Shown piece by piece: positions 5,523-21,644 of a DNA stretch of 26,424 nucleotides (within the stretch, counting starts at the first letter, position 1; each line of letters starts with the position of its first letter). The translations under genes and the position numbers were made by a program. This DNA is from a virus. A model generated the notes under the pieces. The model was not told the origin of the DNA. It ran no database searches and saw only the letters and a program-made list of their open reading frames with translations. Where the stretch lies: positions 1 through 26,424 of IMG/VR virus record IMGVR_UViG_3300030099_004984. One strand, written 5' to 3'.

Positions 5523-5696
5523 TTACCCTGTAGTTGATCCTATACCTTGAGCTCTTAAAGAGCCATCGCAACATTCGATACGATAGGTTTCTTCATCCCA
5601 ACATAGACAAGCTCTGCGACCACCTCTAGGGCTAGCGTGTTTTCCGTATGAAATGTTTATATATTTATTTTTGTAGTTTCTTTTGTGCCTGTACAT
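5523..5696 (-). CDS. Small Cys-rich virion-associated protein (57 aa)
   Basis: Reading the gap after the protease gene reveals a 57-residue protein starting with ATG at 5696-5694 in a TAATG overlap with the protease stop. It begins MYRHKRNYKNKYINISYGKH and contains SPRGGRRACLCWDEETYRI followed by ECCDGSLRAQGIGS. The motif GGRR..LCWD...Y..ECCDGS..AQGIG recurs, as I recall, in short proteins next to phage structural genes, where it often includes two vicinal Cys. Four Cys residues (C30, C32, C42, C43) could bind a metal. No function is known to me. The compact overlap and the sensible composition support that it is real. Confidence 0.75.
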   Translation of the reverse strand: MYRHKRNYKNKYINISYGKHASPRGGRRACLCWDEETYRIECCDGSLRAQGIGSTTG

Positions 5697-7258
5697 TACT
5701 TACTGCTTTTGGGGTGTTTTTTTGGTAGTAGGTCATTATCTTGTTTGTAAGCTTTATTTTGTGGTCTGCCATTTTTTACAAGATACATATATGCGTTGAC
5801 TCTGGCGTGTGCCCACTGTGAGGCACTTCTGACTCTTGGACTGCTACTTGTGTTGAATGCACCTAATCCTCTTTGAAAAACTGCTGACAATTGTCCTATT
5901 GTAACGCCATAACCTAATTTATCTTTATAACGCTTGTTAAAATTGTCTACTTTCTTTTGTAAAGCTTCTCGATCTTTTGCTGTAACCTTTGCCCCTGTTC
6001 GGCCTTTGGCAGAACCCCTAGCTGTACCTTGCCCTTTCGGGTTTGTATTTTTTCTACTGCCGGGAGCCTTTGGACTTTTCACTATACCACCTCTTGGCCC
6101 TACCTTTGCATATTTACTTTTTTTTACACATTTACCATCTTTTTTTACGAAACCCTCTGGACATTTTTTGTCATATAGTTTGTGTTTTTCACAAGGCATA
6201 TACCATATCTGACCCTCAAAATCGTGTGTGTGTATACCCTCACAACCTATATCTCCTGCTATTTTCTCAGCCATTTCTTTTGTGCTATATCCTAATCTAT
6301 CGTTTATTATGGCAAAATCGTCATTTATTTTCTGACTTGTAAGTTCTAGTTCGCCTAGTTTTTTTAATTTACTTTTTGCCCAACTTTTAGCTGATAAACC
6401 ACCCCATAATAAAAAAGATATAGTACCACAAGCTTGTTTGTCTTCTGGTTTGTAGTATGCTTCTGCTCGTGATAGATAGCTATATAATCTTTTTATTGTT
6501 GTTACACTTAATTTTTCTTTTGCTACCAATTGTCTAGCACGATTTTTTCCAACTAAGGTGGCACATTTATTATTGACTTTTTTATTTAATTCAATACCTC
6601 GCCTTGCATTATTAATTGCTGCTTGTGGATAATCGTTATAACTTTCTAGTGTAACTTTTTCACTAAATAGTTTTCTTACAGCATCAAGTATTTCTTCGCT
6701 TTCTTGTTCTTTAAGATCCTTTGCATCTGCCTGTTTTGGTTTTTCCATTTTATCAGCAAAATAACCTTCAACTGAAAAACCTTTTACTTTTCCTGTTTTC
6801 ACATATTCGTTCCAAACTTCATCATTATTAACTTTAATAGCACCCATCCACGTACCAACAGGAACATTCATATTATACTTTCTAGATTTGTCGTGTACCT
6901 CGTCCTCTACCAGCCAACTTTCCACAAGTGTTAATCCTTTAATACTATGTTGATGCTCTATTGTAGATTTACTTTGATTTCCTTTCATCAAAAAACCCTC
7001 TGATGCTTTTCGTACTGTTTCACGTGAAAAATAAATATAATACTCATCCTCCTGATTTTTACGGTAAATGGGTTTATTGGGAATAAGTAGTGGCCCAAGT
7101 AATATACGCTTTTCTTTGTCGACTTCTGCTAATTTAATTTCTTGATGATTTTTAAGAGCAATAAAATCTTCTTCAATTGCTGGGTTTTCTACAACAGATA
7201 TTGCTTCAATACCTGCAAGTTCATCAAATTCATCTATTACTAATTCTACTATTCTCAT
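5696..7258 (-). CDS. XkdF-like prohead protease fused to additional phage domains
   Basis: The first ~170 of 520 residues match the XkdF-like serine protease family (Peptidase_S78_2): VVENPAIEEDFIAL, KRILLGPLLIPNKPIYRK, EHQHS (H102/H104), LVESWLVEDE, GTWMGAIKV and KGFSVEGYF (candidate nucleophile S162). It would cleave scaffold and capsid arms inside the prohead. Further segments follow: 207-305 with YPQAAINNARRGIE and CGTISFLLWGGLSAKSWAKSK; 335-380 with HTHDFEGQIWYMPCEKH and the Cys-pair motif CPEGFVKKDGKC; a Gly/Lys/Arg linker; and 430-515, resembling DUF5824 (LGYGVTIGQLSAVFQRGLGA, QWAHARVNAYMYLVKNGRPQ). These normally occur in other virion proteins. The start coincides with the shared late element. 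Confidence 0.82.
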   Translation of the reverse strand: MRIVELVIDEFDELAGIEAISVVENPAIEEDFIALKNHQEIKLAEVDKEKRILLGPLLIPNKPIYRKNQEDEYYIYFSRETVRKASEGFLMKGNQSKSTIEHQHSIKGLTLVESWLVEDEVHDKSRKYNMNVPVGTWMGAIKVNNDEVWNEYVKTGKVKGFSVEGYFADKMEKPKQADAKDLKEQESEEILDAVRKLFSEKVTLESYNDYPQAAINNARRGIELNKKVNNKCATLVGKNRARQLVAKEKLSVTTIKRLYSYLSRAEAYYKPEDKQACGTISFLLWGGLSAKSWAKSKLKKLGELELTSQKINDDFAIINDRLGYSTKEMAEKIAGDIGCEGIHTHDFEGQIWYMPCEKHKLYDKKCPEGFVKKDGKCVKKSKYAKVGPRGGIVKSPKAPGSRKNTNPKGQGTARGSAKGRTGAKVTAKDREALQKKVDNFNKRYKDKLGYGVTIGQLSAVFQRGLGAFNTSSSPRVRSASQWAHARVNAYMYLVKNGRPQNKAYKQDNDLLPKKHPKSSK

Positions 7259-7289: not shown

Positions 7290-9254
7290 CTATCCTAAAC
7301 TGCTTTCTTGTACTATATTTCTCTCTAATCCTTGTGCGGTTGTAACATCACCAGCTACAACAAATGCTTTTACCGGCTGTTGTTTTTGTGCTGTGATGGT
7401 TTGTGCCAATTGATTTTCAGGTGCTGCCCCAACAATATTAAAACTTGGTGCTGCTGTTTGTATTTGTGGAACATCAATACCCACCGATCCACCGCCACCA
7501 CTTGCACCTGCACTTGATGCAACAGATTTTGTTTTACTTACAGCTGATTTAACTGCGCTAATTACAGCAATAGCTTGAGCTGCATATGCTATTATTAATG
7601 GTATGTTTTGTGGAAAACCTGCTTTTAATGTTTCACTTGCACCTGTTGCTACATTACTACCTGCTTTAGCACCATCAACAGTTGCTTCGGTAGATGCTTG
7701 TTGTGCTTTTAATAATGTCTTTTTAACTTCCATTATATTTTCTTTTGCAGCTAATATTGTTTTTGCTACTAGTATTGCTTTTCCTAATCTACTTTCCTCC
7801 CCTGCAAGTTGTACTGCTGTATTAAATGTCTTTTCTCGAATTGCAATTTTTTGCTGTTCAATAGCTTTTATCTTATTAGCTCTATTTTGTTCATCTTCTA
7901 ATATTGCTTTTGATATTTGAGCATTAAAAAATTTAGTCGCTTCTATTTTTTGTGCATCAGTTGCTTTTAGATCTTCCAACTCTTTTAAACCCCTTTCTTT
8001 TTGTCTTATTGCTCTTTGTTCTGCTGATAAATCTTCTGCATCTTCGTTAAGTTTTCTAAATTTATCTCTGATATTTTTAATAGCTTCTTGCCTTTTTGCT
8101 TCATCTGCGATTGCTTTTGTTATTGCATCTGCTATTTTTTTATTTTCCTTATCGGCTTCTGCTTTATCTTCCTGATCGATTTGATTTAAAAACTGATCAC
8201 GCCTGTTTTTTAATTGTCTTAATTTTTTTTCAGTTTCAGAAATAGCCTTATCTCCCTCTTCATCAACACCTGTAAATATTGATGCTGCTATACTTGCACC
8301 AGCACCACCGACCTTATCAGCTAAACCAAAATCTTTACCAAAAAAAGCACCTATTTTATCTAAACCTGTTGCAAGTTTTTCAATCGGTATTAAAACAAAA
8401 TTCAATATTCCAGTTAAAATAACTCTATTTCTACGTGCTGTCTCTATTTGTTGTTTTCTTAATGTCTCTTGAGCCTGCAATTGTGCTTCTAATGCAGTGA
8501 TTGTTTCATTTGTTTGCTGTATTTTTAGATCTCTGATTTCTTTTTCAGTTTTGCCTTGCCTTTTTAATGTGGCTTCTGTTTCTGAAATATTTTTAAATTG
8601 ATCTTCTGATGCTGTTACAATTTTTGCTGCTTCTTCTGCGGCCTTTTTTTGTTCTTGGTTAACGCCTGTTAGTGCTTCTTTTATTTTATCAAAGTTAGCG
8701 ACTAAAGTACCCACCAAAACTACTAATGCACCAATACCTGTAGATATTAAAACCTTTTGAAAAATTGATAGACTTGCTGTTGCTACTTTTATACCACGAC
8801 CTAAGCTTAAAAATAATTTACCAAATGATTGAAACTGTAGTGATAAACCACCTGTTATTTTGCTTAATCCTGTACTTACATCTCTGTTTTTTAAAAGCGT
8901 TTCGTTAAATTGTGCTGCTTTAATTGTACCGGCTGATACTGCTTTTGTGTTTAATTTTCTTTGTACCCTTGCAGCGTTTAATTCATCTTTTAAAAATTTT
9001 AAATCTGCCCTTTGTTGTTCTAGTAATTGGTTTTCTCTTATTAATTTTGACTCAAACCTCATTTTTTCGCTACCACTCCCTGCTTCTGCCAAGGCATTTT
9101 TATATTCCACTACCCTTTGGTTAGTTTTAGCTAGTTCTTGTCTTTGTATAGCAACATTAAGCGTTAATTCCTCAACCGAATCGCTTGTCAGTTTTATTTC
9201 TTCTCTTGCTTTTTGAGCATTTACAGAAACATTTATTTTTGCTGGTGTTGCCAT
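7290..9254 (-). CDS. Tape measure protein
   Basis: This 654-residue protein has the typical make-up of a tape measure: long charged helices and coiled coils (about 20-120, 215-270 and 330-500) interrupted by hydrophobic segments at about 165-187 (LISTGIGALVVLVGTLVANF), 275-295 and near 545-565 (LIIAYAAQAIAVISAVKS), and an Ala/Lys/Glu-rich composition. It would set tail length and pass into the host envelope at infection. The C-terminus (PSFNIVG, ENQLAQTI, QPVKAFVVAGDVTTAQ, RNIVQ.SSLG) is a signature I associate with tape measure or related virion proteins of Bacteroidota phages. At 654 residues the tail would be of moderate length. Confidence 0.8.
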   Translation of the reverse strand: MATPAKINVSVNAQKAREEIKLTSDSVEELTLNVAIQRQELAKTNQRVVEYKNALAEAGSGSEKMRFESKLIRENQLLEQQRADLKFLKDELNAARVQRKLNTKAVSAGTIKAAQFNETLLKNRDVSTGLSKITGGLSLQFQSFGKLFLSLGRGIKVATASLSIFQKVLISTGIGALVVLVGTLVANFDKIKEALTGVNQEQKKAAEEAAKIVTASEDQFKNISETEATLKRQGKTEKEIRDLKIQQTNETITALEAQLQAQETLRKQQIETARRNRVILTGILNFVLIPIEKLATGLDKIGAFFGKDFGLADKVGGAGASIAASIFTGVDEEGDKAISETEKKLRQLKNRRDQFLNQIDQEDKAEADKENKKIADAITKAIADEAKRQEAIKNIRDKFRKLNEDAEDLSAEQRAIRQKERGLKELEDLKATDAQKIEATKFFNAQISKAILEDEQNRANKIKAIEQQKIAIREKTFNTAVQLAGEESRLGKAILVAKTILAAKENIMEVKKTLLKAQQASTEATVDGAKAGSNVATGASETLKAGFPQNIPLIIAYAAQAIAVISAVKSAVSKTKSVASSAGASGGGGSVGIDVPQIQTAAPSFNIVGAAPENQLAQTITAQKQQPVKAFVVAGDVTTAQGLERNIVQESSLG

Positions 9255-11970: not shown

Positions 11971-13109
11971 TATCGTATGGTGTTAAGTTTATCAAAAGCA
12001 AAATTAAAATTTATAGTATAGTTTGCAAGCTTGTCATTTAAACTCGTCTGAAAAGTTACTTGTTTATTTTCCGGAATTACAGGCAGATGTTTGTTGTCTT
12101 TAAATATCCAGCACCTTGGTGTCATCAATAGTTCTTCTATAACTTGATTATAGCTGTCATTTACATATCCTGTGTTTAAAATAATATTTTCTCTACTAGT
12201 GATATTTCTTGTTTTATATTGCGCATTGTTTATCGAATATGTAGCACCGGTTGTTAGAGTGTTTGCCTTATATTCTTCTCTATTTATATTTATGCTTTCT
12301 ATCGATTTTAAAAAAAAGTTTATACGCTGTAATGCCCCAAATCTATTAACAAAAATGACAGGTATATTGTCAAACTTCTGGCAAGTTTGTTCTTCTACTT
12401 TTATTGTTTCTGTGCTACCGCCTGTAACCACGTCAACACTTGTTAAACTAGCTGTTGTACTTGTTGCATATTCAATAGCTGTGTTTGTTGTGTCAATTCC
12501 TGTTCCAACTGTTACACTTGATATTGTTGTACTACCATTTTTAAAATTAACTGTAGTTGCACCTGTTAATGTATCTGCACCTGAATTAACACTTAAATTA
12601 GCTAGCACAGGTATTTTCAAGATCTCTTGACTTTCTCTAAATATAGTATCGTTAGACATCAATTTTGTGGTGCTTCCCTTGAATGTACTTAATGATAGTG
12701 TTGTGTTATTGTTGGTTTGTGTTTCTGTTGTGAAACCATCTTCAAAATATCCAACGCCATCAAAAGCTAACATATTTGTTGTGATTGCATCTAATGCAGT
12801 ACCGGCTGTGTTTCTTGGGGTTGCTACTGTTTTAACCCAAACATTAAGGCCATTGTTACCAAATGAACCACTAAAGCTGTATTCAATAAAATCTTTGATC
12901 AGTTCGCCAATTTCAAATATTACAAAATTATTATTAGAAACTTCGTTTTTCCTTAATTGATAAGTTAAACTTGGGCTTGTTTGATATGTACCTGTATATA
13001 TTGATATATCGAGATTGCAGTCAGCAAGAGCATTTGCTTCTGTTCCGCCACCATCATTTGCTACCTTTATATATACTGGTGTGTTAATATTTATTTTAAA
13101 TATTGCCAT
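11970..13109 (-). CDS. Tail structural protein, beta-rich
   Basis: This 379-residue protein has an N-terminal beta domain (MAIFKININTPVYIKVANDG through about 160), a Ser/Thr/Val/Gly-rich insertion at about 170-235 and a conserved C-terminal half with IPVIFVNRFGALQRINFF, RNITSRENIILNTGYVND and an ELLMTPRCWIFK motif. The FVNRFGALQ..FF signature is one I associate with distal tail proteins next to the large tail protein that follows here. The pair probably forms the tail tip. Its first bases overlap the gp10-like gene and its stop overlaps the next start as TAATG. A more exact role cannot be read from sequence alone. Confidence 0.6.
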   Translation of the reverse strand: MAIFKININTPVYIKVANDGGGTEANALADCNLDISIYTGTYQTSPSLTYQLRKNEVSNNNFVIFEIGELIKDFIEYSFSGSFGNNGLNVWVKTVATPRNTAGTALDAITTNMLAFDGVGYFEDGFTTETQTNNNTTLSLSTFKGSTTKLMSNDTIFRESQEILKIPVLANLSVNSGADTLTGATTVNFKNGSTTISSVTVGTGIDTTNTAIEYATSTTASLTSVDVVTGGSTETIKVEEQTCQKFDNIPVIFVNRFGALQRINFFLKSIESININREEYKANTLTTGATYSINNAQYKTRNITSRENIILNTGYVNDSYNQVIEELLMTPRCWIFKDNKHLPVIPENKQVTFQTSLNDKLANYTINFNFAFDKLNTIR

Positions 13110-13662
13110 TATTTTTTGCTGTTATTATTTTTATCTCTGTTATAAAATCCTCTCCGTATGCTTTCGCTAACTGATCAGGTAGTTGTTTAAAATATTTTTT
13201 AAATGGTAGTGTAAAAAATAATGATGGTTGTAAACCTTTTATAAATATGCTTTTTGCAATTAAAAAAACTAATGTTTTTCTCGGTATAAACCTACCTCTA
13301 TTATCGCGTACTAATTTGCTTAAACCTTTTTTCCTTACAACCCATTTGTCCAATGGGCCTGTTGGTGGCATACCTTTCAAACCTCTTTTGCCACCTTTTG
13401 ATGTGTATCTAAATTTTCTTCCGTATAATTCTTTGCCCTCACTTCTACCGCCTTTTACACCCTCGACACCAGCATCAACAAATTTGCCGTAACCCTCCAT
13501 AAAAAATGTAATTAAACTTTCGCCTAATGTAATTTTTTCTTTTGATCTTATGCTGTTTACTAAAGTGCCTGTAACTTTATCTTTACTTGCATTTGCTTTT
13601 GCTTCTGTTACAACCTGTCTTGCAAATTTTTGTATAACTTCTGTTACCTTTTGTAGTTTCAT
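13096..13662 (-). CDS. HK97 gp10-like tail completion protein
   Basis: The start is set at the ATG at 13662-13660 (MKLQKVTEVIQKFARQVVTE), which forms a TAATG overlap with the tail terminator gene; two extra codons upstream would need TTG. The 188-residue product has the gp10-type layout: an amphipathic N-terminal helix, then GTLVNSIRSKEKIT and FFMEGYGKFVDAGVEGVKGG, where Y.kFVDaG is the conserved core. Next comes a basic loop with RYTSKGGKRGLKGMPP and a C-terminal helix. Members of this family act at the head-tail junction or in tail completion in siphoviruses. The unusually long basic insertion after VKGGRSEG is an oddity of this copy. Confidence 0.75.
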   Translation of the reverse strand: MKLQKVTEVIQKFARQVVTEAKANASKDKVTGTLVNSIRSKEKITLGESLITFFMEGYGKFVDAGVEGVKGGRSEGKELYGRKFRYTSKGGKRGLKGMPPTGPLDKWVVRKKGLSKLVRDNRGRFIPRKTLVFLIAKSIFIKGLQPSLFFTLPFKKYFKQLPDQLAKAYGEDFITEIKIITAKNNGNI

Positions 13663-14132
13663 TAGCAAATGTTTATATCGTTATCAATTAATATATCCAT
13701 TGTTGCCACCCATCCGGCTACTTCGTTTTCAAATCTATCGAAAAATGGCTCACAATTAACAACCCCATCAAGCTGATACTTTTCTGTATATAAAGTACCG
13801 CTTCTCAGTAACTCTATTAATTTGTTTGCAACAGCTAATTGTGTATTTAATATATCGTGTTCATTATTATTTCCTATAAAAATATCACTTGTCTCATCTT
13901 TACTTTGATCTACAATATCCATACAAATAACACTTATATTGAATCTAAGTACTTGTTCTTCTTGTGTTACATTGTTTACAATTATATGACTGAGTGGATA
14001 AATTGTCTGTTTTGCAAGATCAATTTTTGTAATATCTCCTGTTGTAACGCTATTTACATTTTCATCTGCTAACAAAGTATCACGTATTGTTGTTGTTATT
14101 AAATAAAAACCTCTAACTCCTATATTGCTCAT
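13662..14132 (-). CDS. Probable tail terminator protein
   Basis: This 156-residue protein begins MSNIGVRGFYLITTTIRDTL and has strands around 55-70 (YPLSHIIVNNVTQEEQVLRF), a segment DIVDQSKDE followed by a disordered NNNEHD loop, a helix LNTQLAVANKLIELLRSG and a closing strand GWVATMDILI. The order of a helix, a strand with N..tee...rFni, a helix with vaNKLi..L, and a final vaGW.at..I is that of tail terminator or completion proteins (lambda gpU-like fold), which cap the tail tube at the head end. It follows the tail chaperone and precedes gp10-like. Its ATG overlaps the stop of the frameshift reading frame as ATGA. Confidence 0.65.
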   Translation of the reverse strand: MSNIGVRGFYLITTTIRDTLLADENVNSVTTGDITKIDLAKQTIYPLSHIIVNNVTQEEQVLRFNISVICMDIVDQSKDETSDIFIGNNNEHDILNTQLAVANKLIELLRSGTLYTEKYQLDGVVNCEPFFDRFENEVAGWVATMDILIDNDINIC

Positions 14133-14868
14133 TTTAAACTTTTATTTATTTGTCGTTGTTCAAGTTCATTTTTTTCTTTTATAAATTCCAAAGCATACAA
14201 ACATTCGTGCATATTTAATTTAATGATATCTTTGTACTTTGTAATATCTCCTTTAGCGAGTGCATAAATTGACTGATACCAGCCCCACCTAGTTCCGAAG
14301 TTTGCAATTGCTGAAAGGTTGCCATCTCCTCCGGACTCAAATAAGCCAGAATATTCCTGCTCAAGTCGTTGCCTAAATTGTAAAAAAAAACAATACTACT
14401 AAATACAACATCAAGAGGAACTTGTTTCATATATAAAAATTCCCCACCCTTGTATTTATCTATTATATATCGATCGCTATGTTTTTGTAATACAGGCCTA
14501 TATAAAACTCCCATTGCTTTGTGCATATTTTCCCAATCCTTAAAGTAGGTATCTAAATCAACATATTCGCCAAAAGTCATTTCATCTAGGTTTGGTATAA
14601 AACCATATTTTATTTTATCCATAGTGAAATGCCTGATTAGGTGTTTTGTATCTTGTTCAAATATCTGTGTTAGTTTTTTTGAAATTTTATTTATATGTGT
14701 CATTTTGTACTCATAAATATTTCCGTATGGTACTTTACAAAATATTTCTATCATTTTTGATCCTAATACCATTTGATCCTTTTCATTTTCTTGGAACTTG
14801 ATAAACTTTTGATATTGCTCTAAACTAATATCGTTTAAATTATCCGGTATACTTATTTGAATCCTCAT
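14129..14868 (-). CDS. Tail assembly chaperone, long form by -1 frameshift (246 aa)
   Basis: The zero-frame gene (14868-14215) contains a run of nine T at 14390-14382 read GTT TTT TTT TAC. A -1 slip on T_TTT_TTT (14389-14383) enters a frame that stays open through 14129, adding 84 residues after F162 for a product of 246. The extension begins LQFRQRLEQEYSGLFESGG and contains FGTRWGWYQSIYALAKGDIT and a coiled tail ending KNELEQRQINKSLK. This is clearly protein-like, with the RWGWYQSIY.LA.GD signature I associate with tail-chaperone extensions. The last 27 codons also have their own ATG at 14212. The design mirrors lambda G/GT: short form plus rare extended form binding tape measure. Zero frame also encodes sensible protein, so 14215-14383 is dual-coding. 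Confidence 0.78.
14215..14868 (-). CDS. Tail assembly chaperone, short form
   Basis: The zero-frame protein is 217 residues: MRIQISIPDNLNDISLEQYQ, then KFIKFQENEKD, a helix KMIEIFCKVPYGNIYEYKMT, LTQIFEQDTKHLIRHFTMD, GFIPNLDEMTFGEYVDLDTY, YRPVLQKHSDRYIIDKYKG and a helical end finishing LKEILQSTKISLN. LDEMTFGEYVDLD is a hallmark of a family of small phage proteins located just before tail genes, which I take as gpG-type chaperones that keep the tape measure soluble. The gene starts a transcription unit just after a terminator, with a -7 box TAAATTTG and the shared late element. The interpretation is strengthened by the frameshift extension described separately. Confidence 0.75.
   Translation of the reverse strand: MRIQISIPDNLNDISLEQYQKFIKFQENEKDQMVLGSKMIEIFCKVPYGNIYEYKMTHINKISKKLTQIFEQDTKHLIRHFTMDKIKYGFIPNLDEMTFGEYVDLDTYFKDWENMHKAMGVLYRPVLQKHSDRYIIDKYKGGEFLYMKQVPLDVVFSSIVFFYNLGNDLSRNILAYLSPEEMATFQQLQTSELGGAGISQFMHSLKEILQSTKISLN
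14382..14390 (-). other. Slippery site for -1 ribosomal frameshift
   Basis: Nine consecutive T on the coding strand are read in zero frame as GTT TTT TTT TAC, providing the heptamer T_TTT_TTT of the canonical X_XXY_YYZ form. Slipping back one base leads directly into the long -1 frame. I did not find a convincing downstream pseudoknot by eye. Confidence 0.65.
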
Positions 14869-16271: not shown

Positions 16272-17429
16272 TTATCTTATTGCATATCTTCCGAAGTTAG
16301 GTTTGCTCAATATTGAATAAGTGGCATAGCGTACTGCATCTGTAATGTGGTTGTGATTATCTTCCGGTGTATTTGTTAATTTACCGCTGCGATCTTCTTT
16401 CCATTTATAATTTCTAAACTCTTGTATAGCATTTACACTATCTTTATGTATGTATATTTTATATCTTTTTAATAAATCTATGCCTGCATTGACAGAATCA
16501 CGCCCTTTTAAACTAGGCCTTATTCTCCAACCCATTCTTCTTAATTCTTCAATTGTTCTTGGCTCGCTACTATCTGCATAAATGATTTGATCTGTAACTA
16601 CTTCTTTTAATTTTCTATGTATATCGTTGGTTGTCATCATATTGCGGTATAAATATTCTTTTATATATAAATTAAAATCTTTTATCCAAACACCAACAAG
16701 AGAAGTAGGATCATTTGTAAAGCCAAAATCCATACCCATTGCTATAAATTTTGCATCTTCCGGTAATGAAGTAAACTCATAATAATTAAATATAACTGCT
16801 TTACTAACACCCTTTTCGCCCAAACCATATATTTGCCAATATTGTTCATCAGTATATTTTAGCCTTTCTATTTCATCGACTAAAGTTTTTTCTAAAAATG
16901 GGTTATCTAAATAATTTGTCTTTAAAAAACTTGCATCATCTCGTGGTATCACATTATCGTAAATCCAATGATATTCTTCACTTGGGTTATAATCTAATAT
17001 TATTTTTTCGCTTGTTCTAAATAATAATTGCTGCCAATCTTCGTAGTACAATTCATTAGCTTCATTGATGAATAATAGGTTTCGTTTTCTACCTCTAACT
17101 TTAACAGGCTGATCCAAACTAATAAACTCAATAAGATTACCAAATAAAGTATATTCCGAGCTTGATTTATTGTGTTTATCCTCATCATAAATATTGTGTA
17201 ATTTTAGAATAGTTAAAAAATCTCTAAGAACAGTTGCCCTAAGTGCAGGAAAAGTTTTACGACATACAGTAATAACTTTTTTATTATTTCGTAAACAATA
17301 ATAAAAGATAATAAAAAGAAGAATATTATACGTTTTTCCACTTCTGGTTCCCCCTTGGTTAATTATTATTTTTTTATCTGTATTAACAAGGTGTTTAAAA
17401 ACTACATTACTCTGTATTTTTATTTGCAT
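16272..17429 (-). CDS. terL: Terminase large subunit
   Basis: This 385-residue protein is a PBSX-type (Terminase_3-like) DNA packaging motor. The ATPase domain has Walker A GGTRSGKT at 26-33, the CRKTF motif near 56-60 and Walker B LLFINEAN at 118-125 with catalytic E123. The C-terminal RNase H-like nuclease domain carries MGMDFGFTNDPTSL (D234), IIYADSSEPRTIEEL (D286) and HITDAVRYA (D364), the three acidic residues that bind metal. It docks on the portal, hydrolyses ATP to pump DNA and cuts the concatemer. Its length is near the short end for the family. The start lies inside the end of the small subunit gene (23-base overlap). Confidence 0.95.
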   Translation of the reverse strand: MQIKIQSNVVFKHLVNTDKKIIINQGGTRSGKTYNILLFIIFYYCLRNNKKVITVCRKTFPALRATVLRDFLTILKLHNIYDEDKHNKSSSEYTLFGNLIEFISLDQPVKVRGRKRNLLFINEANELYYEDWQQLLFRTSEKIILDYNPSEEYHWIYDNVIPRDDASFLKTNYLDNPFLEKTLVDEIERLKYTDEQYWQIYGLGEKGVSKAVIFNYYEFTSLPEDAKFIAMGMDFGFTNDPTSLVGVWIKDFNLYIKEYLYRNMMTTNDIHRKLKEVVTDQIIYADSSEPRTIEELRRMGWRIRPSLKGRDSVNAGIDLLKRYKIYIHKDSVNAIQEFRNYKWKEDRSGKLTNTPEDNHNHITDAVRYATYSILSKPNFGRYAIR

Positions 17430-17763
17430 CTAGTATTTCTATTTTAACATCAGTGGGTATACCATCAGCACCAGTGATCTCTTGCCTTTCTACATATCCT
17501 CTTTTTTTCCCTTTTGTTTTTAATAAAAATATTGTAGCTGCTGTTGATCCATCTTGTATTTGTTTGTGTAATTGGCTTTCAGCAAAATCCAATGCAACAT
17601 TTTCAATCTCTTTTACTTTTGTTGCAAACTCTTTGTCATCATTGCAATAATTATAAAAAGTTGTACGGCCTATTCCAACTTGTTTACAGGCTGTTGTAAC
17701 AACACCTAAAGATTTTTCCAAAGCATCGAGCAACCCTTTTTTTATGTGTTCACTTTTGTTCAT
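17407..17763 (-). CDS. terS: Terminase small subunit
   Basis: This 118-residue protein precedes the large terminase gene with a 23-base overlap. It has a predicted N-terminal helix-turn-helix at about 19-45 (GVVTTACKQVGIGRTTFYNY), a central helix (EFATKVKEIENVALDFAESQ) and ATIFLLKTKGKKRGYVERQE, the tail end common in small terminases of the PBSX or Terminase_2 type. It recognises viral DNA and loads the large subunit. Its start overlaps the dioxygenase stop by four bases (ATGA), tying packaging genes into the same operon as the modification cassette, which suggests that DNA is modified before packaging. Confidence 0.85.
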   Translation of the reverse strand: MNKSEHIKKGLLDALEKSLGVVTTACKQVGIGRTTFYNYCNDDKEFATKVKEIENVALDFAESQLHKQIQDGSTAATIFLLKTKGKKRGYVERQEITGADGIPTDVKIEILDANKNTE

Positions 17764-18635
17764 TTTTTTTCTACTTTTTTTCTATAATCTCGTGCCTCTA
17801 CAACTCGTTTCTCTAATTTTTTTAAATGCTCTGGATCTAATCTGTTTATTTCCCTCTGCATTTTTTTTGTCCTTATTCTTGCAATTTCTTCATCTACCGT
17901 TAGGCATTGCCACATTCTCTCTAAAGAATAATATACGATACTATATCGATAGCTGTCTTTGTGTCTATATTCAATTGGGCTAACACCGTGTAATAAATCT
18001 TGCCCATCAAAAATTGTTAAAGAATTATCAGCAACTTCTAATGATATATCAAGCTCAGGTATCACCAAGTGTCCGCCGTCAACATCTCCTTTAAACACTA
18101 TCATATTGCTGTAAACTTCTTTAAAATTGCCACTATCATAGTGGTATTTCAGCTGATTATTTTTGTTCACTATTCCACTTGTAAAAACACTATTGCTTAT
18201 AACCCATTGCTTTTTTACATTTTTTGTTACTTTTTCTTTATGCTCATTATAAGTTTGTGGAAAAAACTCGCTATAAAATTTACATACTTCTTTTGCAAAC
18301 CTAGTGATTACAAAATGTTGTTTCGGATGATCATATCCCATACCACTTGCACTACAATAATCGTGTTTATTTTCTTGCCTTGGATTATAGCCAAAAATTC
18401 TGCTTGTGTTTACAAGACCGTGAGTTCTTTTGCCTTTTAAATATGAAATAGTTTTAACTGCCCATCTGACATCAACAGGTTTTTTTGGCAAAATTCTGTA
18501 TAACAAGATCGGCTTATTATTATGATATATAATTACATCATCTTTAATGTGTGTAGATACGTCTGATAGTCTAGCTGTTCTTCTAATGTAGTCATTACGG
18601 TCAATAGGTTTTCTGTTAATATTTATTCTTCTCAT
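17760..18635 (-). CDS. JBP1/TET-type 2-oxoglutarate Fe(II) dioxygenase
   Basis: This 291-residue protein has the double-stranded beta helix layout of phage TET/JBP oxygenases. Visible are SRIFGYNPR (78-86), DYCSASGM (92-99), VFTSGIVNKNNQLKYHYDSG (150-169) with iron ligands H165 and D167, NMIVFKGDVDGGHLVIPELD (177-196), SLTIFDGQDLLHGVSPI (205-221) with the third ligand H216, and SYRYSIVYYS with the 2-oxoglutarate-binding R230. A basic helical tail follows. Such enzymes hydroxylate the methyl group of 5-methylpyrimidines in DNA, giving hydroxymethyl bases for further modification. The flanking glycosyltransferases support that role. The actual substrate, 5-methylcytosine or thymine, cannot be read from the sequence. 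Confidence 0.88.
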   Translation of the reverse strand: MRRININRKPIDRNDYIRRTARLSDVSTHIKDDVIIYHNNKPILLYRILPKKPVDVRWAVKTISYLKGKRTHGLVNTSRIFGYNPRQENKHDYCSASGMGYDHPKQHFVITRFAKEVCKFYSEFFPQTYNEHKEKVTKNVKKQWVISNSVFTSGIVNKNNQLKYHYDSGNFKEVYSNMIVFKGDVDGGHLVIPELDISLEVADNSLTIFDGQDLLHGVSPIEYRHKDSYRYSIVYYSLERMWQCLTVDEEIARIRTKKMQREINRLDPEHLKKLEKRVVEARDYRKKVEKK

Positions 18636-19342
18636 CTAATCAATCTAATATGACTGCCTTTTGGCTGATTTGGTTTGTCTGCTATAATAACATTTTTGGG
18701 AAACAGTTTTAGCATTATTTGAATTTCTTTCATTTTTTGCTTTAATCTTTTTTGCACACTACCCAAACCACCATCTGTATATCTTTCAAAATCTAAAAAA
18801 TGAGTGTTAACTATTAAATTTTTTGTGTTTTTTTTCATATGATAAACACTTGCATAATAATCAGGTATACAACCAATTTCGGGATGAAACAAAAATTCTG
18901 TTTTTTTTATAGCACAACACCTTGTATCGACTAAACCAAAATAGCTGTAAGCACTTTTTACATAAAATGCATTACCTGTTGCACACATACCTACAAATTC
19001 AATTCCAATTTCATCTGCTTTTTTAACAGTTTCTTTTAGTTTATTTAAAACTTCTTTTACAGAGCAATCCACAAAATCATATTTTAAATCATTAAATTTT
19101 TTACCACCTATTAAATCATCGCTTAAAAAAATACACCATTCGCCATATTTAAGAGTTTTCAATGCGTAATTAAAATTGTTTTGTATACCGGTAGGAAGAT
19201 CTGTTTGTATTATTGTAGCTTGTTTCGATATGTTTTTAAATTTATGTGCGTTTTTATGGCATAATATTGTGTGAGGTTCTTCAATTTTCATTGAGGTTGT
19301 ACTTGTTTCATATCGATCATAATACATTAAAAATATTTTCAT
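18632..19342 (-). CDS. TET-associated glycosyltransferase
   Basis: This 236-residue protein begins MKIFLMYYDRYETSTTSMKI and has the GT-A style Rossmann pattern: PHTILCHKNAHKF, TGIQNNFNYALKTLKYGEWC, then IFLSDDL with the acidic pair D75-D76 for metal and nucleotide sugar, followed by VGMCATGNAFYVKSAYSYFG, H153, PDYYASVYH (D161) and a C-terminal RYTDGGLGSVQKRLKQK and NQPKGSHI. The layout matches, from memory, TET-associated glycosyltransferases (TAGT), which add sugars to hydroxymethyl bases made by phage TET enzymes. It overlaps the dioxygenase by four bases (ATGA), which makes a joint function likely. The sugar donor is unknown. Confidence 0.75.
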   Translation of the reverse strand: MKIFLMYYDRYETSTTSMKIEEPHTILCHKNAHKFKNISKQATIIQTDLPTGIQNNFNYALKTLKYGEWCIFLSDDLIGGKKFNDLKYDFVDCSVKEVLNKLKETVKKADEIGIEFVGMCATGNAFYVKSAYSYFGLVDTRCCAIKKTEFLFHPEIGCIPDYYASVYHMKKNTKNLIVNTHFLDFERYTDGGLGSVQKRLKQKMKEIQIMLKLFPKNVIIADKPNQPKGSHIRLIR

Positions 19343-19920
19343 TTGTTTTTGTATAGTTTCATTAAATATAGAAATACTTCTGTATTATCTTCTAAACCCT
19401 CTTTGTCTCTTAAATCTACAAGGTCTTTTATTATATTCTCATAATCTTGTGAGTTAAAATATAGTGTAATCTGTTTTACTTTTGCATTTATGTATGTATC
19501 TAACTCTTCATCAAATACATCTCGATCAATGTCAGGCTCTTTGTCCTCATCAAAATATATTTTTGGTAGGTCAAGACCCCATTCTGATAAATCTTTGATT
19601 TCCCATTCATTTGCTAATATATCCCAATCCCACTCTCCAAAACTGCTGTTGTCTTTTATAATAAATTCATCTTCTTGTTTTGGTGTAAGGTTTTTTGCTT
19701 GTACAATCCATACCTGTTTTTGTCCTGCTTCAACAGCAGCTTTATATCGCATATTCCCACCTAAAATTAAATTATTTTCATTCACTACAATAGGTCTTAA
19801 TTTCATCATTTCCGGAAAATCTTTTATGCTTTTAACAAGCTTCTCAAATTTATATCCTTTAATAATTCTTGGATTGTTTGCATTTTCTTTTACATCAGCT
19901 ATGTTTACTTTTTTTATCAT
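19339..19920 (-). CDS. ParB-like nuclease-domain protein
   Basis: This 193-residue protein has an N-terminal ParB/sulfiredoxin-type domain: NANNPRIIKGYKFEKLVKSI, FPEMMKLRPIVVNE, LILGGNMRYKAAVEAGQKQV (GGNMR at 54-58) and ED.FIIKDNSSFGEWDWDIL. A 60-residue acidic C-terminal part follows, with DEELDTYINAKVKQITLYFN. In many mobile elements this domain stands before or is fused to a DNA methyltransferase, and it also accompanies phage TET cassettes. It may guide modification to sites, act as an NTP-using clamp, or have nuclease activity. Here the usual methyltransferase partner is missing; the next gene is the TET-associated glycosyltransferase. Overlaps with both neighbours are four bases. Confidence 0.8.
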   Translation of the reverse strand: MIKKVNIADVKENANNPRIIKGYKFEKLVKSIKDFPEMMKLRPIVVNENNLILGGNMRYKAAVEAGQKQVWIVQAKNLTPKQEDEFIIKDNSSFGEWDWDILANEWEIKDLSEWGLDLPKIYFDEDKEPDIDRDVFDEELDTYINAKVKQITLYFNSQDYENIIKDLVDLRDKEGLEDNTEVFLYLMKLYKNK

Positions 19921-20627
19921 TTGAAAGTTTTATGTGTTTTTAAATTTTTATTAACAGTGTTTAACCAGCTCCCACTTACAAAATTTTCCATAAAATAATC
20001 ATTTTTTTTTAATTTATGCCATTTATTGTTTGTTTTGTTTTTATAATAAAATTTAGTGTAAATCAGTTTTTGTGGTTTATAACTTGGCATTACTTTGTTT
20101 AAAAACTTTGTTAAAAATCTTGGCCCTGTTGTTTGCAATACGAATCTTGCAGGCCAAACATTATATATTTGAATTTTCATTTTATCATTATAATTATCTA
20201 TCATCTCTGATAAAAATATTTCAAAACCTTTCCAGCCTTTGATACAACCAAAAAAGTCATTGCTTATTTTTTCTGTTTTTGATAAATGTGAAAAAGTGTG
20301 AAAAAAAAATTTTTGATTTATTAGGGGCTTAAAATTTTTAATCACAACCATATCAAGATCGGTGTAAATACCACCTTTTAAATAACAAATAGCATACTTC
20401 ATAAAATCAATTCTTTGTATATCAAATTTTAAATTATTATAAAAATTATAATATTTTGGCATTTGTTTTTTTATAAGTTTATCGCATTGTTTTTCAGTCC
20501 ATAATTTATATTTAAAATCATTATTAATTTTTAAATGTGAATATCGACTTTTTTTAAATAATTCTATATCATCAATTTTTTTGTTTTGTATATTAAAAAA
20601 AATTTGATGTATTTTTTTTGGTATCAT
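19917..20627 (-). CDS. GT32-like glycosyltransferase (DXD type)
   Basis: This 236-residue protein opens with MIPKKIHQIFFNIQNKK, the typical start of DXD sugar-transferases (Gly_transf_sug, OCH1-like). It shows KLWTEKQCDKLI, IQRIDFMKYAICYLKGGIYT and the metal-binding D90-L-D92 in YTDLDMVVIKNF. Later come DFFGCIKGWKGFEIFL and TTGPRFLTKFL, then a C-terminal SGSWL. It transfers a sugar from a nucleotide donor. Being locked between the exonuclease and ParB genes with ATGA overlaps in the TET cassette, it could add a second sugar to the modified base. Alternatively it could modify host or virion surface glycans. No membrane segment is seen. Confidence 0.82.
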   Translation of the reverse strand: MIPKKIHQIFFNIQNKKIDDIELFKKSRYSHLKINNDFKYKLWTEKQCDKLIKKQMPKYYNFYNNLKFDIQRIDFMKYAICYLKGGIYTDLDMVVIKNFKPLINQKFFFHTFSHLSKTEKISNDFFGCIKGWKGFEIFLSEMIDNYNDKMKIQIYNVWPARFVLQTTGPRFLTKFLNKVMPSYKPQKLIYTKFYYKNKTNNKWHKLKKNDYFMENFVSGSWLNTVNKNLKTHKTFK

Positions 20628-21418
20628 AATTTTCCTCGTAAAGTATAGCTATCAATGTCTGCTCCATCAATAAAAAATTGTACGTATCTTGATATTGCTT
20701 GATATGTTTTTTGTTTTCCTGATAAATAAAACTCCTCGGTGCATTCGATGATACCAATATCTAAACTCCCTTTGTCAATAACTAAAAAATAAAATTTATC
20801 ATAACTGATATTAAATAATTTGCAATAAATATATACTTGAACATCATAGTTCAATTTGTAAGGACTACCGGCAGCAAACCTTTTATCATAATCCCATAGC
20901 GAAATATCCATTGTAGTTTTTAAATCTACTACACGATCTTTGCACCATACATCTGCCTTTGCACGAAAAGGTAAACCATTTATAATACCTATTTTTGGCA
21001 CCTCATATTCGCATTTTGTGAGTAGTTTCATTGCTTGTTCGTTTCTATAGATCGCATCTTGCAATCTTTCTGTTTCAGATCTTTCTTTTGCAGTAAATAC
21101 CATATCTTTATTTTTCGCAGCTTCTTTAAATTTTTTTGTGTTTCTAGTTTGAACATTAACAAAAGTTTGCTGAGCAAATTTTTCAGGCTCTAAAACAGCA
21201 CAGTGCAATAGCCAACCGGTTTTCATTGATGGTGTCATAGGTTGTGCATTATTTGTGATATATTTGTATTTCTTTGGGCTTTTTATTAAATGTTTAATCG
21301 AAGAACTACTTAGTGCTGTTTTGCCTAAATAACCATAATAAAAATCATCATCTATCATTTTTTTTTCTAAATCGCTCACTTCCCAAGTTTGCGAATCTAA
21401 TAGTGTTATTTGCTTCAT
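20624..21418 (-). CDS. RecE-like PD-(D/E)XK exonuclease
   Basis: This 264-residue protein fits the DUF3799/exonuclease VIII-like family. It has YYGYLGKTALSSSSIKHLIK then SPKKYKYI (28-54), MKTGWLLHCAVLEPEKF with G68 and H72, FRAKADVW (D156), VVDLKTT (D165, K167) and YDVQVYIYCKLF (Q194), which together form the metal-dependent nuclease site. The enzyme digests one strand of duplex ends to provide single strands for phage recombination with an annealing protein. The longer start at 21418 is preferred since the SSS..K motif follows a conserved-looking N-terminal stretch, though it overlaps the upstream gene by 71 bases; an ATG at 21358 is possible. Confidence 0.85.
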   Translation of the reverse strand: MKQITLLDSQTWEVSDLEKKMIDDDFYYGYLGKTALSSSSIKHLIKSPKKYKYITNNAQPMTPSMKTGWLLHCAVLEPEKFAQQTFVNVQTRNTKKFKEAAKNKDMVFTAKERSETERLQDAIYRNEQAMKLLTKCEYEVPKIGIINGLPFRAKADVWCKDRVVDLKTTMDISLWDYDKRFAAGSPYKLNYDVQVYIYCKLFNISYDKFYFLVIDKGSLDIGIIECTEEFYLSGKQKTYQAISRYVQFFIDGADIDSYTLRGKL

Positions 21419-21644
21419 TTAATTTATTTTTTAAATCTTGTATTTCTTTATTATATTTTGCTTGTTGCTCATAATATTGATCTTTTAAAATATTATGTTC
21501 AATTTTTAGCATATGTGTGTACGTATACATTTGATTTATGCATTTGATTTTATTATGAATTTGCTTGGTTTTTTTTTGATCGTGTTCTTTTATTAGAATT
21601 TGTGCAATAAAATTAAAAGCTGCTTCAAATATTAAAAATTGCAT
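21348..21644 (-). CDS. Small coiled-coil protein (98 aa), unknown
   Basis: The protein begins MQFLIFEAAFNFIAQILIKE and has long helices: a hydrophobic first helix, then a Lys/Glu-rich coiled coil (KIEHNILKDQYYEQQAKYNK to EIQDLKNKLNEANNTIRF) ending in a basic tail. It is the first gene after the -7 box at 21661. Its last 71 bases overlap the exonuclease start. The partner role with the exonuclease is suggested by the overlap only. No family is recognised. Confidence 0.55.
   Translation of the reverse strand: MQFLIFEAAFNFIAQILIKEHDQKKTKQIHNKIKCINQMYTYTHMLKIEHNILKDQYYEQQAKYNKEIQDLKNKLNEANNTIRFANLGSERFRKKNDR

Follow-up and report, generated by a model that had tools for sequence, protein, structure and literature searches.

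Gene layout of the locus

The window, by which we mean the whole 26,424-base IMG/VR virus record IMGVR_UViG_3300030099_004984, carries its late genes on the minus strand. One of these genes contains a run of nine T's, at which a second open frame, offset by −1, would join it and carry the protein past the zero-frame stop codon. The features of the locus and its neighborhood are as follows.

14215..14868, minus strand: zero-frame gene, 217 amino acids, putative G-like short product, stop codon at 14217-14215; residues 1-162 are common to the short product and the predicted fusion
14382..14390, minus strand: run of nine T's, codons 160-163, read GTT TTT TTT TAC in the zero frame
14389-14383, minus strand: in-phase heptamer T_TTT_TTT inside the T9 run
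14398-14396 to 14131-14129, minus strand: −1 frame, open from stop to stop
14129..14383, minus strand: −1 extension, putative T-like domain, 84 codons plus stop, reached only via a slip
14215..14382, minus strand: dual-coded stretch, 168 nt, equal to 55 zero-frame sense codons plus stop
14129..14214, minus strand: single-coded end of the −1 extension, where the −1 third-position change rate climbs after the zero-frame stop
13662..14132, minus strand: next gene, 156 amino acids, phrog_30964 (function not known), whose first 4 nt overlap the end of the extension
13096..13668, minus strand: HK97 gp10-like or neck protein candidate, phrog_5 "tail completion or Neck1 protein" (E 1.4e-3)
7290..9254, minus strand: tape measure protein, phrog_24676 "tail length tape measure protein" (E 6.7e-11)
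16272..17429, minus strand: large terminase subunit, upstream context, Terminase_3C (E 2e-22) and Terminase_3 (E 3.1e-21)

We checked base by base the coordinates that a first-pass annotation, made from the sequence alone, had given for the zero-frame gene, the T run, and the −1 frame, and all of them were correct. Its count of 56 dual-coded codons holds for the 168-nt overlap when the zero-frame stop is included with the 55 sense codons. A slip on T_TTT_TTT joins residue 162 to LQFRQRLEQEYSGLFESGGDGNLSAIANFGTRWGWYQSIYALAKGDITKYKDIIKLNMHECLYALEFIKEKNELEQRQINKSLK (84 residues) to give a 246-amino-acid fusion, in which the 84-residue −1 extension would take the place of the last 55 residues of the short product. 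A normal gene call reports the 217-residue protein and misses these 84 residues, as the first-pass annotation had said, and the comparative tests below support that view. The AT-rich window has 12 A/T homopolymers of nine or more, so the T9 run alone carries little weight and it is conservation that counts.

Four genes separate the tape measure gene from the frameshift gene. By position, the gene at 13662..14132 sits where a neck or tail-terminator gene would be found, and the protein encoded at 13096..13668 also matched PF04883, below the cutoff of that family. The 520-residue product of 5696-7258 (minus strand) resembles a protease in its N-terminal part (phrog_34096, phrog_15223), has a long basic C-terminal part, and is a candidate fused head protease. 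Upstream, the gene at 17760-18635 (minus strand) encodes a 2OG-Fe(II) oxygenase domain of the Tet_JBP type (Pfam E 7.6e-13), which may point to base modification; a 2OG-Fe(II) oxygenase is also present in the cultured phage P12024L (P12024L_26). A glycosyltransferase with a DXD motif (19917-20627, minus strand; PF04488, E 1.1e-13) and a ParB_N-like gene (19339-19920) lie near each other and near the oxygenase gene, and the three form a possible DNA- or surface-modifying set. Finally, the open frames at 21348-21644 and 20624-21418 (minus strand) share about 70 nt, which include a homopolymer of nine (21358-21366).

Conservation of the slip site and the −1 frame

We collected relatives of the locus from IMG/VR contigs, Bacteroidetes MAG contigs, and a cultured Nonlabens phage. 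For the first scan, we used the zero-frame protein as the query and took the best 80 loci, at 39 to 100% identity; in all assessable loci the −1 frame was open across the overlap and the +1 frame was closed over most of the region. Scans that used the extension, the homologue from cultured P12024L, and a divergent alignment as queries enlarged the collection to 386 loci, 317 of them distinct after removal of duplicates. Each scan was made up of its best 80 matches, and some pattern sets contained the slip-site peptide; a scan with the WGWY motif, whose pattern lacked the slip-site peptide, gave the same result. At least 599 IMG/VR stretches encode a relative of the extension.

Among the matches listed, the extension lay in the −1 frame relative to the zero-frame domain in 316 of the 317 distinct loci. 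The T run at the junction had nine T's in 277 loci, 10 in 38, and 12 in 2, that is, at least nine in 317 of 317, and a run of 7 or 8 was found in none of them. T_TTT_TTT was in phase at every locus with a −1-frame extension (316/316), the codon before the two Phe codons was always GTT, CTT, ATT, or TTT (316/316), and both Phe codons were TTT in 632 of 632 cases. Elsewhere in the same genes, GTT accounted for 41% of Val codons and TTT for 71% of Phe codons. The extension alignment was conserved from the slip site onward and not upstream, with the consensus FFLxFRxRL...FGxKWGWYQSIYALAxGDITRFExITKL..HxCLxxLxFxKEKNELE. One locus (L363) has a T10 run whose extra T merges both domains into a single open frame, either as a natural fusion or as an assembly error.

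The first-pass annotation had proposed a T_TTT_TTT slippery site with a hidden −1 frameshift and had named relatives with a broken −1 frame or without the T run as grounds for giving it up. The relatives keep the site, with the T run in all 317 distinct loci and the −1 frame open. Comparative data thus move the predicted −1 frameshift in this tail gene from plausible to well supported.

Selection on both frames in the overlap

We re-drew synonymous codons across the overlap in 56 diverse relatives, with 1,000 draws. No zero-frame stop was observed, versus 190.6 expected in total (minimum of 164 in the 1,000 draws), and the reverse randomization in the same number of relatives gave 262.2 expected −1-frame stops, versus none observed. 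The open frames in the overlap are therefore not a product of chance. The +1 frame had 2 to 10 stops in each of the 56 relatives.

A second analysis compared C/T differences at the −1-synonymous third positions of Phe, Tyr, His, Asn, Asp, and Cys codons in 60 disjoint pairs; these sites are the second positions of zero-frame codons and are unable to make a stop. Such sites differed in 9.9% of cases in the overlap, versus 21.5% in the single-coded extension and 27.7% upstream (P of 1.7e-6 and 1e-22, respectively). By parsimony, −1 third-position changes per site rose from 10.1 to 28.4 right after the zero-frame stop. The A/G sites of Lys, Gln, and Glu codons showed no depletion in the overlap relative to the single-coded extension (15.5% versus 17.9%; P of 0.34); the zero frame is thus partly, not fully, under selection. 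Selection on it was also uneven, being strongest in the first ~14 codons past the slip site and in the last ~14 and weak over FGxKWGWY.

The codons of KWGWY and LAKGDI yield zero-frame motifs such as NGDG and SLKEIL, which had prompted the idea that the zero-frame tail is a shadow of the −1 protein. We dropped this idea, given the absence of zero-frame stops and the twofold depletion at C/T sites. The comparison of synonymous change rates between frames that the first-pass annotation had suggested was thus made in relatives, where −1-synonymous sites change less inside the overlap, and its statement that both frames appear selected is borne out by zero stops in either frame and the twofold C/T depletion. 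As judged from these patterns, the 55 codons in the window are truly dual-coded, with purifying selection on both frames.

The number of zero-frame codons past the slip site is 55 in the window, mostly 53 to 66 in relatives, and 79 to 88 in a derived clade (L081, L183, L198, L277, L286, L378, and L381), in which almost the entire extension is dual-coded; part of that clade shares zero-frame ends such as PNWEYGSALPTLLTSD. At the other extreme, the zero-frame tail ends 7 codons past the slip site in L140 and after 16 to 25 codons in the P12024 group (L082, L166, L167, and L168), in each case with an intact −1 extension. The zero-frame tail is thus dispensable in some relatives.

Cultured phages and likely hosts

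The cultured Nonlabens phages P12024L (genes 40/41) and P12024S (genes 38/39) have a CTT TTT TTT TAT slip site and a homologous −1 extension. Their zero-frame protein is homologous to that of the window, with about 30% identity over the matched part, and has 25 codons past the slip site, compared with 55 in the window. P12024L_41 (JQ823123.1 24473-24640) and P12024S_39 (JQ823122.1 23663-23830) are annotated as separate hypothetical genes starting from ATG, and the frameshift is not recognized in the annotation of either record. P12024L_41 and P12024S_39 are instead the end of the −1 extension of the preceding gene.

A tblastn search of cultured phages with the extension gave no match. In a bacterial genome collection, there were three extension matches, two on contigs of a Winogradskyella MAG and one in a Bacteroidetes MAG. 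These matches, together with the flavobacterial host of the cultured phages, make Bacteroidetes the likely hosts. The phages with this frameshift would then make up a marine and freshwater lineage that probably infects Bacteroidetes.

Mechanism of the frame change

The extension has no usable start codon, and the fusion must therefore come from a change of frame at the T run. Our best explanation, and a fairly probable one, is a G/GT-type tail assembly chaperone made via −1 ribosomal slippage at T_TTT_TTT. Normal reading would give a product of 217 residues and a one-base backward slip a product of 246 residues with the same N terminus. When the ribosome slips, both tRNA-Phe molecules would re-pair with UUU one base back. 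The slip rate would be low, as is typical of phage tail genes that lack a structured stimulator, so that the short product would be the major one and the fusion the minor one. Many copies of the short form would coat the tape measure protein, and the few copies of the fusion would recruit the tail tube protein. We infer the slippage itself, together with its ribosomal nature, its rate, and the chaperone function. That the slippage is ribosomal is, in our judgment rather than by computation, likely.

The tail chaperone fusions of lambda, P2, L5, and HK97 are made by ribosomal frameshift (PMC5009743, PMC5313236). In 40 relatives, RNA folding over the 70 nt downstream of the site was no stronger than in shuffled sequences (mean z of 0.09). 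A ribosomal slip on U_UUU_UUU requires nothing more, and many tail chaperone frameshifts likewise have no downstream stimulator (PMC3091744, PMC5009743).

The fusion could also come from programmed transcriptional slippage, with RNA polymerase adding one U on the T run of nine or more in some transcripts; this would yield the same 246-residue protein, residue for residue. The length of the run speaks for the polymerase, in that all 317 loci have at least nine T's and never 7 or 8 when a heptamer would suffice for the ribosome, and published bacterial thresholds are T runs above 8 (PMC3711429) or 9 A or T (PMC5009743). The lack of downstream RNA structure and the AT-rich genome point the same way. 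However, the second-base T of the first codon is matched by T in 100% of sequences at about 15 further hydrophobic columns, and the −1 frame requires the T past the heptamer for Leu/Phe, as A or G there would in many cases give a stop codon. Protein constraint can therefore account for both extra T's, and T9 rather than T7, once compared with the other hydrophobic columns, is not decisive as proof of transcriptional slippage. In addition, the run length varies (9, 10, or 12) while the frame is kept, and a change in run length would strongly alter polymerase slippage. In the literature searched, we found no tail chaperone made in this way. We regard transcriptional slippage as possible but not the likely source of the fusion.

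A bolder reading, somewhat doubtful in our view, is that RNA polymerase slippage on the invariant T run of at least nine sets the chaperone ratio and that a lineage-specific C-terminal segment of the short product, 55 to 88 residues long, has been overprinted on an older T-like domain in a large marine and freshwater lineage.

Identity of the protein

The zero-frame protein of the window matched phrog_32199 (function not known) with an E value of 1.1e-17. All the zero-frame homologues scanned matched this family too, and several of them also matched phrog_166 "tail protein" weakly (6/27, E of 1e-2 to 1.7e-4). AlphaFold2 modeled the zero-frame protein with a mean pLDDT of 75.7, with the C-terminal 27 residues below 50. 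Predicted proteins from P12024S and numerous uncultured Caudovirales matched the model; weaker matches were to two proteins that carry the name tail assembly chaperone, among them A0A8S5V8Z8 (prob of 0.97, E of 0.04). A weak fold match to Flavobacterium phage 6H was also seen. The model of the extension was of low confidence (pLDDT of 62), and a fold search with it named no function. Pfam and NCBIfam gave no match to a tail chaperone family, and PDB sequence and fold searches gave no useful match. The first-pass annotation had suggested a profile search of the extension against tail-chaperone T domains; hhalign against lambda G and T as single-sequence templates gave probabilities of 0.5 and 0.1, neither significant, and the comparison with both was negative.

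The gene lies between the terminase genes and the neck genes in a packaging, neck, and tail block. This is not the usual, though not obligatory, place of a tail chaperone gene between the major tail protein and tape measure genes, as the tape measure gene is four genes further downstream. Nevertheless, −1 frameshifts giving two products in the late region of long-tailed phages are a hallmark of tail chaperones (PMC5009743), and a tail assembly chaperone is our best reading of this gene, which we hold with good confidence from the two-product architecture in the late region and not from homology. The name given in the first-pass annotation therefore stands as an inferred function to which the phrog_166 and fold matches lend weak direct support, for a gene that has no detectable lambda G/T homology and does not adjoin the tape measure gene.

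The frameshift may be real and the protein not a tail chaperone but another two-product protein of neck or head morphogenesis. The place of the gene, after the terminase block, before the neck genes, and apart from the tape measure gene, would suit such a protein, as would the lack of direct homology to known chaperones and a single confident family whose function is not known. We nonetheless consider this unlikely, given that a two-product −1 frameshift in a late region is typical of tail chaperones (PMC5009743) and that the weak matches are to a "tail protein" family and to folds named tail chaperone.

Internal start and sequencing error

The extension might be a small gene in its own right, with a start codon of its own and coupled to the gene upstream, as the annotation of P12024L_41 and P12024S_39 from an ATG in the −1 frame would suggest. 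In the window, the extension has no ATG, GTG, or TTG before codon 58 of 84, and an ATG within the first 35 extension codons was found in only 7 of 311 relatives. Conservation, moreover, sets in at the slip site, which precedes any start of this kind. Given the missing start codons in the window and the rarity of an early ATG in relatives, we rejected an internal start as very improbable.

An indel in the T run of a gene with one true frame, or a pseudogene, has next to no probability even though homopolymers are error prone and L363 with its T10 run has both frames fused into one, as 316 of 317 distinct loci keep the frames apart, both frames are selected in the overlap, and more than 300 separately assembled contigs agree with the two cultured, separately sequenced phages, which disposes of the single-base error that the first-pass annotation had named as a possible refutation.

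Implications

The locus belongs to a widespread and so far unannotated frameshift family that includes two cultured phages besides the IMG/VR stretches, and its dual-coded stretch is far longer than in textbook cases. In the training set of the predictor PRFect, the mean distance from slip site to stop is 26 nt (PMC10885494). Predictors of programmed frameshifting trained on short overlaps are likely to miss such sites, and gene callers truncate the protein. The step from an overlap of 16 to 25 codons in the P12024 group to 53 to 88 codons in the rest offers a natural series for the origin of overlapping coding, and the invariant run of at least nine T's poses a clean choice between ribosome and RNA polymerase.

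Comparison with known systems

Thermus dnaX and Shigella mxiE resemble the window gene in having a homopolymer of about nine and a fusion of two frames. They are not phage tail genes, and RNA heterogeneity has been demonstrated for them (PMC3711429, PMC5009743).

Closer in kind is the E/E+E' pair of P2, a tail chaperone made by a −1 shift on a T-rich heptamer and, like the window gene, without a predicted downstream hairpin (PMC3091744). The P2 heptamer is the mixed T_TTT_TTG, whereas the site in the window lies in a homopolymer of nine, and P2 has about 6 zero-frame codons past the site (record annotation), versus 55 in the window.

With lambda G/GT, the window gene shares two products with a common N terminus, a −1 shift late in the short gene, an extension domain, a location in the late structural region, and the lack of an obvious stimulatory structure. 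Lambda slips at G_GGA_AAG and the window gene at T_TTT_TTT in a T9 run, and lambda G/T immediately precedes the tape measure gene, whereas four genes intervene in the window. The lambda G/GT arrangement therefore describes the locus correctly in kind, but the proportions differ, with 5 zero-frame codons past the slip site in lambda and 55, conserved, in the window. Unlike in lambda and P2, the short form of the window gene has its own conserved C-terminal tail atop the T-like domain. The finding is well supported as a real frameshift of a kind known from tail genes, with an unusually long dual-coded region that is under selection.
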